From assembly GCA_017465505.1 (NCBI GenBank), contig JAFTWB010000004.1, positions 1 to 64,000 of the forward strand: DNA of 64,000 nucleotides, read 5' to 3'. Source of the stretch: Clostridia bacterium. Lineage in GTDB: Bacteria > Bacillota > Clostridia > Oscillospirales > Acutalibacteraceae. The notes under the pieces are model-generated. The model made no database searches. It was not told the DNA's origin and saw nothing but the letters and a program-made list of their open reading frames with translations. Position numbers and translations under genes: made by a program. Below are positions 5,349 to 56,980 of the stretch, piece after piece; position 1 is the stretch's first letter, and each line of letters begins with the position of its first letter.

Positions 5349-6419
5349 ATGAAAAAACTCATCTGCATTTTAATGGTACTTGTTCTCACAGTTGGAGCTA
5401 TGGCAACTCTCAGCGGTTGCGGTAAGTCCTATGACAGCGAAATCAACGTTTTTAACTGGGGCGAGAACATCAGCGACGGCACCGACGGCTCTATGGATGT
5501 TATCAAAGAGTTCGAAGACAAGTTCAACATCAAGGTTAACTACACAACCTACGAAACAAACGAAGAGCTTTACTCAATTTTAAGTTCCTCAAATTCAAGC
5601 TACGACATCGTAATTCCTTCTGACTATATGATTGAAAAGCTTATCTCTGAGGATTTACTTACAGAGATTGACTTTGAGAACATTCCCAACTACAAGAACA
5701 TCGCTGAAACCTACAAAAACCTGCCCTTTGACCCTGAAAACAAGTACTCTGTTCCCTACACCTGGGGTGTGGTTGCACTTGGATATAACACCACAATGGT
5801 AAATGGCGTTGAAATCAAGGGCTTTGCAGATTTATGGAACGAGAACCTCAAGGGCAACATCCTTATGATTGACAACAGCCGTGACGCAATGGCAATTGCA
5901 ATGCAGCTTTCAGGTATTTCACCCACAAAGTTCACAAAGGCTGACGTTGACAAGGCAGCACAGAAGCTCTCTGAGCAGAAGCCCCTTCTCAAAAAGTACG
6001 TTATGGATATGGTGTTCACCGAGATGGAGGGTGCACAGGCTGCTATCGCTCCCTACTATGCAGGCGATATTTACTCTATGATTCAGAACAACCCCGACCT
6101 CACTTACTGCTTACCCGAGGAAGGCTCAAACTTCTTTGTTGACTCAATGTGTATTCCCAAATCCACACAGAACAAAGAGGGTGCAGAGCTTTTCATCAAC
6201 TTTATGTTAGAGGCTGAGGTTGGCGCTGCAAACGCTGAGTACATCGGCTACTCCACTCCTAACAGTGAAGCCTTCAAGCTTCTTCCCGAGGAAATTCAGA
6301 GCTCCGAGCTTATTTATCCCTCTGAGGAATACCTGAAGAAGTGCTACTCCTTCGCAGACCTTGACAAAGATGTTTACTCCTATATGCAGGAGAAATTCAT
6401 TGAAGTTAAGGCTGAGTAA
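5349..6419 (+). CDS. potD: Polyamine-binding lipoprotein PotD
   Basis: Extracytoplasmic receptor that delivers spermidine/putrescine to PotBC. The N-terminus is a lipoprotein signal with lipobox LSGC (Cys24). The mature part begins EINVFNWGENIS, typical of PotD/PotF, and carries aromatic and acidic residues of the family's ligand cleft (for example YTWGVVALGYN and the late DSMCIPKS strand). Length of 356 residues is normal. It lies 13 bp after potC behind AAGGGAGAT and ends the operon; the array at 6430-6595 and a terminator follow. Confidence 0.95.
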   Translation: MKKLICILMVLVLTVGAMATLSGCGKSYDSEINVFNWGENISDGTDGSMDVIKEFEDKFNIKVNYTTYETNEELYSILSSSNSSYDIVIPSDYMIEKLISEDLLTEIDFENIPNYKNIAETYKNLPFDPENKYSVPYTWGVVALGYNTTMVNGVEIKGFADLWNENLKGNILMIDNSRDAMAIAMQLSGISPTKFTKADVDKAAQKLSEQKPLLKKYVMDMVFTEMEGAQAAIAPYYAGDIYSMIQNNPDLTYCLPEEGSNFFVDSMCIPKSTQNKEGAELFINFMLEAEVGAANAEYIGYSTPNSEAFKLLPEEIQSSELIYPSEEYLKKCYSFADLDKDVYSYMQEKFIEVKAE

Positions 6420-6429
6420 TATAAAACTA

Positions 6430-6595
6430 AGTTTGCACAAGTGCAAGTGAAGTTGCCAATGTCAGTGAAGTTACTTCGTAGTTAAGTTTGCTTCGCAAAT
6501 GTTTTTAAAGCAAACTTAACTTCACTTTTAGTAAAACAAAAACTTCACTGTAATTTATTACAACTTCACTTCAAACTAAATGTTTGAAATTTCAC
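6430..6595. repeat. Palindromic hairpin array, linker AGTGAAGTT (copy 1)
   Basis: A 9-nt linker alternates with short hairpins. AGTGAAGTT occurs at 6446-6454 and 6464-6472 (AGTTAAGTT at 6480-6488). The polarity then flips to AACTTCACT at 6518-6526, 6541-6549 and 6562-6570. Between linkers lie GTAATTTATTAC (6550-6561) and TCAAACTAAATGTTTGA (6571-6587). The centre 6480-6523 forms a long stem (AGTTAAGTTTGC with GCAAACTTAACT). The whole element is thus an imperfect inverted repeat about 165 bp long. A second copy lies at 49118-49288. No reading frame is conserved between the copies. Confidence 0.85.
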
Positions 6596-6604
6596 CAAAA
6601 TATT

Positions 6605-6639
6605 AAAGGCGATTGACCGTAAAAAGTCAATCGCCTTTT
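6605..6639. terminator. Bidirectional terminator after potD
   Basis: AAAGGCGATTGAC (6605-6617) pairs with GTCAATCGCCTTTT (6626-6639). T-runs suit ends of both the pot operon and the minus-strand gene whose stop is at 6641. Confidence 0.85.
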
Positions 6640-47369: not shown

Positions 47370-49112
47370 ATGGAAATGATTAACATTAAAATTAACGGTA
47401 TGCCTTTCTCTGTTGAGAAGAATACAACAATTCTTGATGCATGCCATCAGTTCGGTATTAAAATTCCCACACTCTGCTACCTCCGTGATATGAACGAAAT
47501 CGGTGCTTGCCGTATGTGCGTTTGTGAGGTTGTAGGTGCTCGTTCTTTAGTTGCAGCTTGCGTTTATCCTATTGACCGTGAGGGTACTGAGATTATCACA
47601 AACTCTCCCAAGGTTATGGAGGCAAGAAAGACTACGTTAGAGCTTATTCTTTCCAACCACGAGAAGAAGTGCCTCTCCTGCGAGAGAAGCAACAACTGTG
47701 AGCTCCAGACAATGTGCAAGGAGTTCGGCGTTGACTGTGAGGACAGATTTGCAGGCGAAAACCCTGTTCTTCCCATTGACACATCAACAGCTCACTTAGT
47801 TCGCAACAACAACAAGTGTATCCTTTGCAGACGCTGTATTGCAGCTTGTAAGGAGCAGCACGTTGGCGTTATCGGTGCAAACAACCGTGGTTTTGACACA
47901 GTTGTTGGTTGTGCTTTTGACCAGGATCTTGCAGATGTAGCTTGCGTATCCTGCGGTCAGTGTACAGCAGTATGTCCCACAGGTGCTCTTATCGTTAAGG
48001 ACGAAACAGCAAAGGTTTTCGAGGCTCTTGCAGACCCCGAGAAGATTGTTATCGTTCAGACAGCTCCCGCAGTAAGAGCAGCTCTCGGCGAGGACTTCGG
48101 TATGCCTATCGGCACAAACGTAGAGGGCAAGATGGTTGCTGCTCTCAGACGTCTTGGCTTTGACAAGGTATTTGACACAAACTTCGGTGCAGACCTTACT
48201 ATTATGGAGGAAGGCACAGAGTTTATCGACAGAGTTAAGAACGGCGGCGTTCTTCCTATGATTACTTCCTGCTCACCCGGCTGGGTTAAGTTCTGTGAGC
48301 ACTACTACCCCGACCTTCTCCCCAACCTCTCTACCTGTAAATCTCCTCAGCAGATGACAGGTGCTATGATCAAGTCCTACTATGCTGAGAAGGAAGGCAT
48401 TGACCCCAAGAAGATTGTAAGTGTTTCCGTAATGCCCTGTACTGCTAAGAAGTTCGAGCATAAGCGTGACAACGAGGGTCGTGACGGTATGCAGGATGTT
48501 GATATCGTTATTACAACAAGAGAGCTTGCTGATATGATTAAGAAGGCCGGCTTACAGTTCACAAACCTTCCCGACGAGCAGTACGACCCTGCAATGGGTG
48601 ACTTCACAGGTGCTGCTGTTATCTTCGGTGCAACAGGCGGCGTTATGGAAGCAGCTCTCAGAACAGTTGCTGACGTTCTCACAGGCGAGGACCTTAAGGA
48701 AATCGACTACACAGACGTTCGTGGTACTGAGGGTATCAAGTATGCAGCTTACGAGGTTGCAGGTATGCCCGTTAAGGTTGCTGTTGCAAGTGGTCTTGAG
48801 AACGCTTCCAAGATTCTCGATGACATCCGTGCAGGCAAGGCTGATTATCAGTTCGTTGAGATTATGTGCTGTCCCGGCGGTTGTGTAAACGGCGGCGGTC
48901 AGCCCATCCAGCCTGCTTCTGTTAGAAACTTCGTTGACATCAAGGCAGAACGTGCAAAGGTTCTTTACAACGAGGACGCAGGCCTTCCCAAGAGAAAGTC
49001 TCACGAGTCTCCCCTTATCAAGAAGGTTTACGAGGAGTACCTCGGCGAGCCCGGCGGCCACAAGGCACACGAGCTCTTACACACAACATACGTTGAGCGT
49101 AAAAAGTACTGA
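47370..49112 (+). CDS. hydA: [FeFe]-hydrogenase catalytic subunit A
   Basis: 580 residues: N-terminal plant-type [2Fe-2S] (GACRMCVCEV), His/Cys [4Fe-4S] (HEKKCLSCERSNNC), 2[4Fe-4S] (CILCRRCIAAC, CVSCGQCTAVCP) and the H-cluster domain with L1 TSCSPGW (about 299-305), L2 MPCTAKKFE (about 355-363) and L3 EIMCCPGGCVNGG (about 495-507). L1 has Ser in place of the second Cys of TSCCP; TSCSP enzymes form a known subgroup. Produces H2 within HydABC. RBS AAAGGAG; ends the operon. Confidence 0.95.
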   Translation: MEMINIKINGMPFSVEKNTTILDACHQFGIKIPTLCYLRDMNEIGACRMCVCEVVGARSLVAACVYPIDREGTEIITNSPKVMEARKTTLELILSNHEKKCLSCERSNNCELQTMCKEFGVDCEDRFAGENPVLPIDTSTAHLVRNNNKCILCRRCIAACKEQHVGVIGANNRGFDTVVGCAFDQDLADVACVSCGQCTAVCPTGALIVKDETAKVFEALADPEKIVIVQTAPAVRAALGEDFGMPIGTNVEGKMVAALRRLGFDKVFDTNFGADLTIMEEGTEFIDRVKNGGVLPMITSCSPGWVKFCEHYYPDLLPNLSTCKSPQQMTGAMIKSYYAEKEGIDPKKIVSVSVMPCTAKKFEHKRDNEGRDGMQDVDIVITTRELADMIKKAGLQFTNLPDEQYDPAMGDFTGAAVIFGATGGVMEAALRTVADVLTGEDLKEIDYTDVRGTEGIKYAAYEVAGMPVKVAVASGLENASKILDDIRAGKADYQFVEIMCCPGGCVNGGGQPIQPASVRNFVDIKAERAKVLYNEDAGLPKRKSHESPLIKKVYEEYLGEPGGHKAHELLHTTYVERKKY

Positions 49113-49117
49113 TAATT

Positions 49118-49288
49118 AACTAAGTTTGACGTTGTCAAGTGAAGTTGCGAAACCGCAGTGAAGTTACTGCGTAGTGAAGTTGCTTCGCAATTAGTTTTTG
49201 GACAAACTTAACTTCACTTTTGCTTAACGCAAAAACTTCACTGAAATTTATTTCAACTTCACTTCAAACATAAAGTTTGAAACTTCAC
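49118..49288. repeat. Palindromic hairpin array, linker AGTGAAGTT (copy 2)
   Basis: Same plan as 6430-6595. AGTGAAGTT occurs at 49138-49146, 49157-49165 and 49173-49181; AACTTCACT at 49210-49218, 49234-49242 and 49255-49263. Intervening hairpins are GCGAAACCGC (49147-49156), TTTGCTTAACGCAAA (49219-49233), GAAATTTATTTC (49243-49254) and TCAAACATAAAGTTTGA (49264-49280). Outer ends pair through CTAAGTTTG and CAAACTTA. It follows hydA by a few bases and precedes the terminator. Confidence 0.85.
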
Positions 49289-49294
49289 AAAATT

Positions 49295-49334
49295 CCACCC
49301 GAATGAGTCTTTAAAATCTCATTCGGGTGGTTTT
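49295..49334 (+). terminator. Terminator of the hydrogenase operon
   Basis: CCACCCGAATGAG and CTCATTCGGGTGG (13 bp) then TTTT. Confidence 0.88.
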
Positions 49335-49384
49335 GCTATATTGAAAATAAAATAATTAAGTGATACAATATTATCGGTGATACA

Positions 49385-49825
49385 ATGATCAGAAAAATAA
49401 AATCACAGGATAAACCACAATACATAAAAATGGCTGAGGATTTTTACGCCTCTCCTGCCGTGCTCTCCCCTGTGCCCAAAAGCCATTTTGAGGCTACATT
49501 TGAAGAGCTTATGAAGGGCTCTGCTTATACCGAGGCTTTTATTTTTGAATGTGAAAATCAAATTGCAGGCTACGGACTTATTGCAAAGACATTTTCTCAG
49601 GAAGCAGGCGGCGTTGTTATCTGGATTGAGGAAATTTATGTGAAGAGTGAGTTCAGAAACCAAGGCATTGGCTCTGAATTTATTGAATACATCAAAGAAA
49701 ACATCCCTGCAAAGCGTTACAGACTGGAAACCGAGCCTGAAAACATAAAAGCCCAAGAGCTTTACAAACGCCACGGCTTTAAACATCTTGAGTATATAAA
49801 TTATTCATTGGAGGTAAATTTATGA
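49385..49825 (+). CDS. GNAT-family N-acetyltransferase
   Basis: 146 residues; acetyl-CoA-binding VKSEFRNQGIGSEFIEYI (R-x-x-G-x-G/A type) and EPENIKAQELYKRHGFKHLEY at the C-terminus. Substrate unknown. RBS is weak (GGTGATAC). It overlaps the next gene by ATGA. Confidence 0.85.
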   Translation: MIRKIKSQDKPQYIKMAEDFYASPAVLSPVPKSHFEATFEELMKGSAYTEAFIFECENQIAGYGLIAKTFSQEAGGVVIWIEEIYVKSEFRNQGIGSEFIEYIKENIPAKRYRLETEPENIKAQELYKRHGFKHLEYINYSLEVNL

Positions 49826-51995: not shown

Positions 51996-52035
51996 CTAAT
52001 TTCACCTCCGTTAAAATGATAACGCAGTTCATAAG

Positions 52036-52180
52036 AGAAAAGCCTCTTTCCTGAGAAAGAGGCTTGAAATTACATTATTCACCCTAAGGTGTGTAATAGC
52101 TTCTTCCTCGGCAGGCGGATATTAAATCCATTATATCTTGAAAAGACACCTGCTGTCTTTAGAACAGCGATTTATATTCA
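52036..52180 (-). promoter_or_regulatory. L10 leader (autoregulatory RNA)
   Basis: Between rplA and rplJ. The minus strand shows a set of stems including a CCTGCCGAGGAAG-type conserved stretch (around 52107-52119) and a final AAGCCTCTTTC / GAAAGAGGCTT hairpin with TTTTCTCTT (52065-52034), an attenuator. This matches the Firmicutes L10 leader, bound by the L10(L12)4 complex. Confidence 0.7.
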
Positions 52181-56857: not shown

Positions 56858-56869
56858 TAAATAAAACAA

Positions 56870-56966
56870 AACAGGGGTGCTGACGGCAAGTCGGCTGAGA
56901 TAGAGAATGTATATGCTTCTCTGACCCTATAACCTGATACGGATAATGCCGGCGTAGGAAGTAGAT
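56870..56966 (+). ncRNA. TPP riboswitch
   Basis: Conserved THI-box: AGGGGTGCTGACGGCAAG-like 5' part with GGCTGAGA, then ACCCTATAACCTGATACGG and ATGCCGGCGTAGGAAGT. Followed by an intrinsic terminator, so TPP should shut off thiT by premature termination. Confidence 0.93.
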
Positions 56967-56980
56967 TCACTGTTTTTACC

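Follow-up and report, generated by a model that had tools for sequence, protein, structure and literature searches.

Bacterial genomes hold several kinds of short, repeated sequence. The BIMEs of enterobacteria are mosaics of palindromes and linkers, often located at the 3' ends of operons, and the heptamer repeats (STRR) of cyanobacteria are a further system for comparison. REPIN/RAYT systems, as outlined in PMC3116915, combine REP palindromes with a Y1 transposase: the palindromic units are short, extragenic and present in several copies, and a partner gene family goes with them. For REP sequences, PMC3733652 describes palindromes with a terminal GTAG or CGTC tag. The IVS of 23S rRNA, which PMC4990558 calls a selfish element, carries an S23 ORF together with inverted repeats, and the same source speaks of the S23 (IVP) proteins as having no known function.

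Here we analysed a 64,000-nt stretch of DNA from a Clostridia bacterium (the window), which contains two copies of one array of small hairpins. The original prediction, made from the letters of this stretch, was that a paired base change between the copies indicates selection on structure. The paired change is genuine and part of a pattern across the array family, which has no Rfam match and is linked to S23 (PF05635) genes. Among the open-access papers listed in literature searches, none dealt with these arrays or with S23 together with hairpin arrays.

Array anatomy and covariation

The two copies are each 171 nt long (6425-6595 and 49118-49288) and consist of seven hairpins (h1-h7), with linkers GTGAAG in the 5' half and CTTCAC in the 3' half. 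The order is AACTAAGT, h1, three GTGAAG-hairpin units (h2-h4), a centre, and three hairpin-CTTCAC units (h5-h7). The features are listed below; the module borders of copy 2 were placed by hand, and the basis of each entry is given in brackets.

5349..6419, +, extracellular solute-binding protein, potD-like, the name potD being that of the original prediction (Pfam)
6425..6595, +, array copy 1, following the potD-like gene (own-genome matches, sister genome)
6606..6639, +, terminator hairpin AAAGGCGATTGAC/GTCAATCGCCTTTT, common to the sister genome (sequence, comparison with the sister genome)
47370..49112, +, iron hydrogenase, hydA-like (Pfam)
49118..49288, +, array copy 2, seven hairpins h1-h7, behind the hydrogenase gene (sequence, own-genome matches, alignment)
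49126..49138, +, hairpin h1, TTGAC..GTCAA (borders by hand)
49139..49144, +, 5' linker 1, GTGAAG, predicted partner 49257-49262 (consensus fold)
49145..49157, +, hairpin h2 (module parse, covariation)
49158..49163, +, 5' linker 2, predicted partner 49236-49241 (consensus fold)
49164..49173, +, hairpin h3 (module parse, covariation)
49174..49179, +, 5' linker 3, predicted partner 49212-49217 (consensus fold)
49180..49205, +, hairpin h4 and central A+T-rich stretch (module parse)
49206..49217, +, end of the centre, ACTTAACTTCAC (module parse, alignment)
49218..49235, +, hairpin h5 (module parse, covariation)
49242..49256, +, hairpin h6, site of the paired change (sequence, covariation, alignment)
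49263..49282, +, hairpin h7, TTCAAAC/GTTTGAA (sequence, covariation)
49295..49330, +, terminator-like hairpin CCACCCGAATGAG/CTCATTCGGGTGG behind copy 2 (sequence, comparison with the sister genome)

The 5' arm of h1 could alternatively pair with the centre (about 49202-49209), with one mismatch in copy 2. The paired change reported for h6 is present: 6550-6561 reads GTAATTTATTAC and 49243-49254 reads GAAATTTATTTC, positions 2 and 11 both differ, and the pairing is kept. We also found, as had been described, that the h7 stem is the same in both copies around different loops (TAAAT in copy 1, ATAAA in copy 2), and that each copy lies between the stop codon of the upstream gene and a terminator-like hairpin. 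The linkers had been called fixed, which is mostly correct; copy 1 has GTTAAG as the third 5' linker and TTTCAC as the last linker where copy 2 has GTGAAG and CTTCAC. Stems h1, h2 and h5 differ between the copies as well. RNA folds of the window copies gave z = -4.1 and -5.8 relative to shuffled sequences. Rfam gave no match at either array when the whole window was searched, and only sub-threshold matches to eukaryotic or unrelated families when 49000-49400 was searched in E-value mode. Elsewhere in the window, Rfam matched a TPP riboswitch (56863-56977) and a ribosomal L10 leader (52027-52180).

For covariation analysis, 109 of 151 candidate matches were parsed as copies. Twelve with long or nested modules were dropped, and the 97 kept gave 56 non-redundant copies, 49 of which formed alignment A1 (L022, L058, L066, L067, L103, L123 and L129 were left out by choice). 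A tree-aware null was built on the 56 non-redundant copies with our own script after the R-scape idea, in which substitutions were re-scattered on a FastTree tree (60 simulations, anchored arms). Eighteen column pairs reached E<0.05. Fourteen of them belong to the 36 proposed pairs and are found in h2, h3, h5, h6 and h7; the other four lie within h2. Variation in h1 and in the alternative h1-centre pairing is too small for this test.

RNAalifold on the 49 copies returned 39 pairs, comprising the hairpins and three nested linker helices (alignment columns 27-33/162-168, 47-53/138-144 and 67-73/109-115). Double-sided changes were seen at 16 of the 39 consensus pairs (0/500 shuffles as high). Paired cells made up 97.0% vs 87.3% in shuffles and cells with two-sided changes numbered 195 vs 55.5, neither value being reached in 500 shuffles, a test that ignores the kinship of the copies and takes its structure from the same alignment. 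The comparison over many members that the original prediction had called for was thus strongly positive by both the tree-aware script and the RNAalifold shuffles. The h6 pair of the window belongs to the lineage of L001-L004, L120 and L162, in which one position has either T-A or A-T and the following one A-T, G-T or C-G. Module shuffling was considered as a source of covariation and found to be minor: of 303 distinct modules, 14 were shared between slots (75/540 copies).

These results show that the array structure is real and maintained. In the consensus fold, the complementary 5' and 3' linkers form nested helices, giving a predicted junction ladder with a hairpin on either side. Within the window family the linker helices are nearly invariant; they are supported by the other linker families, where the two halves change jointly.

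Distribution and insertion sites

A search of the genome that contains the window (assembly of 1.9 Mb in 30 contigs, 84% complete) gave matches with E <= 0.001 at six places: four cover almost all of the query (81-100% identity) and two are more diverged. BLAST among 98 relatives detected the repeat in 6, own genome counted. The three-5'-linker pattern occurred in 27/394 genomes of the order and 19/168 genera, vs 0 for the reversed-pattern control; its occurrence is patchy across the families of this one order. Scanning of named genomes gave at least 115 stretches with the pattern. Among the 80 titles listed, all were MAGs of Clostridia, Clostridiales, Oscillospiraceae or Ruminococcus, and the samples, where named, were mostly ruminant hindgut. 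The window-type pattern had 0 matches in viral contigs.

Both window copies are absent from the sister genome G026, the flanks of which are 93% (hydA) and 92% (potD) identical to those of the window; by this comparison the two copies look like insertions. At potD, G026 keeps the shared terminator with about a dozen bases between it and the stop codon. At hydA, another hairpin stands in place of the window's terminator-like hairpin, and CCACCCGAA-type hairpins like the one behind copy 2 were also seen by eye behind copies L003, L004 and L162. The difference at hydA and this recurrence suggest that the terminator-like hairpin may have come with the element.

At the 5' end, a hairpin with 8 or more pairs (H0) adjoins the array in 77/97 copies (a raw count without shuffle baseline). 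Of 273 near-identical array pairs at different places, 70 lose upstream likeness no more than 4 nt from the array, and 109 lose it at 30-34 nt, a distance equal to the length of the H0 hairpin. On the downstream side of the same pairs, likeness is lost within the first 4 nt in 89 and at 150-169 nt in 65; the remaining pairs break off elsewhere. Judged by these breakpoints, hairpin, array and terminator-like hairpin seem to be combined as a mosaic in the mobile unit. Where both neighbours are within 1 kb, the upstream ORF is co-directional in 71/90 copies and the downstream ORF in 41/90. By eye, the array follows apparent tRNA-gene terminators in L025, L043 and L134. Neither a target-site duplication nor array movement was seen.

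Individual loci showed further variation. In L151, the hairpin upstream of the array is the common TTAGCGTGTTATCCTTAACGGAGAACACGCTAA in exactly inverted form. Arrays in L148, L160, L029 and L164 contain a second palindromic repeat (GGGGTTCCCCGAAA...), either within a hairpin or beside h4. At about position 3107 of L138, an array contains the unit GTGAAGTTATCTTCGATA three times, showing that units can expand.

Several S23-bearing copies are located in the last codons of a gene that we take to be rumA from its protein motif HVESVVCL..., and S23-bearing and other arrays have this site in common. Five of 24 rumA 3' ends carry an array: L311, L318 and L327 (linker GTGAAGTT), L316 (ATGAATTG) and L335 (GCGATAT). 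In all five, the outer arm of the hairpin is rumA coding sequence and the inner arm mirrors the sequence of the same genome, perfectly or with small gaps. The array-free rumA 3' end in L315 has no such hairpin; L048 and L133 have little of it. We read the mirror hairpin as a palindrome that was probably made or adapted on insertion, and a use of its mirror arm as a pairing guide is possible. Degenerate rumA 3'-end fragments repeated between small genes in L022, L053, L081 and L129 resemble, by eye, the attachment sites of a cassette row.

Arrays in front of S23 genes

At least 11 of the 109 parsed copies have an S23-type gene of about 120 aa within about 100 bases downstream (L007, L022, L043 (twice), L048, L053, L081, L097, L129, L133 and L137), in the order array, ribosome-binding site, gene. 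The proteins tested, that of L048 and relatives from other linker families, belong to PF05635/TIGR02436, a four-helix-bundle family, and the nearest solved structure to the S23 protein is 2rld. No S23-like ORF is listed alongside either window copy. Arrays of the same design but with other linkers stand directly upstream of many S23 genes:

GTGATGTT/AACATCAC: L226
ATGATG: L213, L224, L257
GTGATATT and relatives: L268, L301, L231, L233
TCGATATG/CATATCGA: L103, L296
ATGAATT: L274, L276
ATGAAAT: L269, L292
GTGATGC: L227
GCTAAATT, by eye, 3' half ambiguous: L210, L217

Using an array detector at score >= 7, 37/90 distinct S23 genes obtained from S23 searches were positive vs 12/238 other ORFs (loci not chosen for arrays). 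The remaining 53/90 S23 genes fail the detector, and 26/90 pass after subtraction of 11 heptamer-type or doubtful cases; among the 90, 38 were drawn from regions of genomes that had been picked for their arrays, and 18 of those are of the hairpin type. The raw count was 49/103 S23 genes vs 10/262 other ORFs, which includes 13 S23 genes from array loci (12 of them at score >= 7) and array loci in the control as well. Shuffled sequences gave 0/103. The first S23 detector had found 25/81 at score >= 5, with 0.0 in shuffles. Among S23 upstream regions with any direct repeat, the region's own motif was found inverted in 55/94, vs 6.4 on average (maximum 13) for the motif of a foreign locus, a comparison in which the inverted half is not assumed beforehand.

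Linker distance and S23 distance are correlated (Mantel r = 0.545, 0/5000 permutations) over 38 arrays, the set left from 49 S23 arrays scoring >= 7 once eleven heptamer-type or doubtful loci had been excluded by name. The correlation comes mostly from close relatives (r = 0.10 beyond an S23 protein distance of 0.35), and linked inheritance alone would also produce one. All three S23 genes found in the window's own genome have arrays, all outside rumA, and the linker GTGAAGTT is absent from all three in this 84% complete assembly. None of five S23 genes examined in the array-rich genome G202 has a GTGAAGTT array either; the cognate S23 is therefore not always found. Presence of S23 is weakly tied to presence of arrays (27/29 array genomes vs 22/31 others). 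A recurrent structured nucleic acid before many S23 genes, with a linker that tracks S23 relatedness, makes the function of S23 testable by binding assays.

Where an S23 gene has no hairpin array, tandem repeats of ~7 nt often stand before it (L265-L267, L270; L207-L209, L216), among them TTAGTGA in Bernardetia, AATTCGT in Nostoc and ATAATGC in a Clostridia genome. In L264 (Monoglobus), the S23 gene is inside a type I restriction operon, at a place where the source collection tabulates no gene, and in L270 (Planktothrix) it is between a DISARM gene and MmeI.

Two other candidate partners were rejected, with array genomes defined in both counts by the GTGAAGTT linker only. The Y1 (IS200-type) transposase (PF01797) occurs in 16/29 array genomes vs 13/31 others, and no PF01797 was found in G202, G225, G162, G256, G367 and G322, each of which has several array matches. 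A resident reverse transcriptase (group II intron, DGR) was sought as RVT_1, which is present in 3/29 array genomes and was not found in the window's own genome (84% complete).

Explanations and comparison with known systems

We give about an even chance (roughly 0.5) to the reading that the window arrays are solitary, non-autonomous members of a selfish-element family that is linked to S23 and occurs in gut Clostridia. The S23 protein would be the cognate partner of the array, binding array RNA or ssDNA and serving its spread or expression, and solitary arrays would be derivatives that lack the S23 gene. The perfection of the stems would come largely from DNA-level copying of one arm off the other (template switching), combined with selection for the shape of the whole. 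H0, which in most copies adjoins the 5' end, may be a palindrome made or adapted at insertion; the mirror arm of H0 in several rumA copies is as expected in that case. More tentatively, S23 (IVP) proteins could pair specifically with inverted hairpin arrays, every clade recognising a linker word of its own. Protein and array together would then form a class of mobile element that depends on no known transposase and on no reverse transcriptase resident in the genome. It would go in next to hairpins and make or adapt a mirror arm of the target, with solitary arrays as its MITE-like parasites.

It is rather unlikely, in our estimate, that the arrays are passive, functionless palindromic DNA (MITE-like) in which template switching keeps the hairpins, host or unrelated enzymes spread them, and S23 hitch-hikes at shared sites such as rumA. 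The state of the stems agrees with such an origin: 518/561 stems in the 97 copies are perfect Watson-Crick (21/582 hairpins without a 3-pair stem omitted, h4 uncounted, and stem ends chosen by best score, so that only inner mismatches register), and changes are two-sided. Template switching has been proposed as an origin of compensatory changes in RNA genes (PMC8794818). It would produce perfect stems along with double changes and leave no lasting intermediate; palindrome repair at the DNA level fits the data as well as selection does. Loop inversion, a sign of template switching, showed no excess inside the arrays (3/714 pairs vs 5 and 2 in controls); the H0 loop was inverted in 3/16 comparisons. 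Use of the rumA site by S23-bearing and other arrays alike would also be consistent with passive DNA, as would a genome that yields no S23 with the window's linker. On the other hand, S23 genes outside rumA, three in that same genome included, also have arrays with other linkers before them, and linker identity tracks S23 relatedness.

We regard as unlikely a structured 3'-UTR RNA in the sense of the original prediction, kept by transcript selection (for mRNA 3'-end stability, or as a decoy for an RNA-binding protein). Strong covariation, the co-directional upstream ORFs (71/90) and the position of both window copies before a terminator are in its favour. Mismatches among 2745 stem pairs were 16 G-T (0.6%), 9 A-C and 23 others (G-T vs A-C, p = 0.23), and the linker helices had 5 G-T vs 7 A-C. 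Copies 90-95% alike gave 151 two-sided and 164 one-sided changes (55 G-T, 34 A-C, 75 others), and copies at least 95% alike gave 40 two-sided and 39 one-sided isolated changes (5 G-T, 11 A-C, 23 others), the copy pairs not being independent in either count. G-T has no clear lead over A-C: its surplus in the stems and at 90-95% identity leans to an RNA role, the one-sided changes at the higher identity lean the other way. G-T is also rarer in the arrays (16/2745) than in 18 tRNA acceptor stems (5/126, p = 0.0018) and in 132 terminator-like hairpins (44/1467, p = 8e-10), sets that were chosen differently from the array copies, which are related to each other; the terminator-like hairpins themselves have 44 G-T vs 32 A-C. 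Many copies, moreover, are directly behind a hairpin, some (by eye) behind terminators and some before an S23 gene, and presence is patchy.

The earlier claim of selection on structure stands in one part: the covariation shows a genuine structure that is being maintained. To take this as selection on the mRNA fold or on the stability of its 3' end goes beyond the evidence, given the scarcity of G-T and the near-equal numbers of two-sided and one-sided changes. Maintenance may act on RNA or on DNA, and the arrays may have a role in the transcript. Two-sided changes in short palindromes, even with strong statistics, need not reflect RNA selection.

Least probable is a toxin-antitoxin-like or self-regulating unit of S23 gene and leader array, with solitary arrays as orphan leaders: type III toxin-antitoxin systems do have a repeat RNA before a small protein gene, much as array, ribosome-binding site and gene of about 120 aa follow each other here, and S23 genes lie amid restriction or DISARM genes in two plasmids, but S23 matched no nuclease family in the libraries searched, PADLOC returned only one marginal match (SspE, E 0.0098) for one of two S23 proteins, and numerous solitary arrays stand behind ordinary genes.

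The proposed S23-linked selfish elements share traits with each of the described systems. Like BIMEs, the arrays are mosaics of palindromes and linkers, but they are unrelated in sequence, larger and more regular. The STRR have their counterpart in the ~7-nt repeats before S23 genes, which run forward and then inverted in Treponema and Planktothrix and are tandem in Bernardetia and Nostoc, at one locus each; these heptamer repeats differ from the arrays in having no hairpins in between. REPIN/RAYT, as far as described in PMC3116915, likewise have short palindromic units in inverted arrangement, extragenic, multicopy and with a partner gene family; the arrays differ in their seven hairpins of varying sequence, their other linkers, and S23 as the candidate partner. 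Instead of the GTAG or CGTC tag given for REP sequences in PMC3733652, the arrays have the linkers GTGAAG/CTTCAC. From the IVS the studied arrays differ in lying outside rRNA, the window copies being behind protein genes, and in the long hairpin array that stands before the S23 gene, many arrays being geneless. What they have in common with the IVS as presented in PMC4990558 is the S23 gene itself, which accompanies at least 11 of the 109 parsed array copies.
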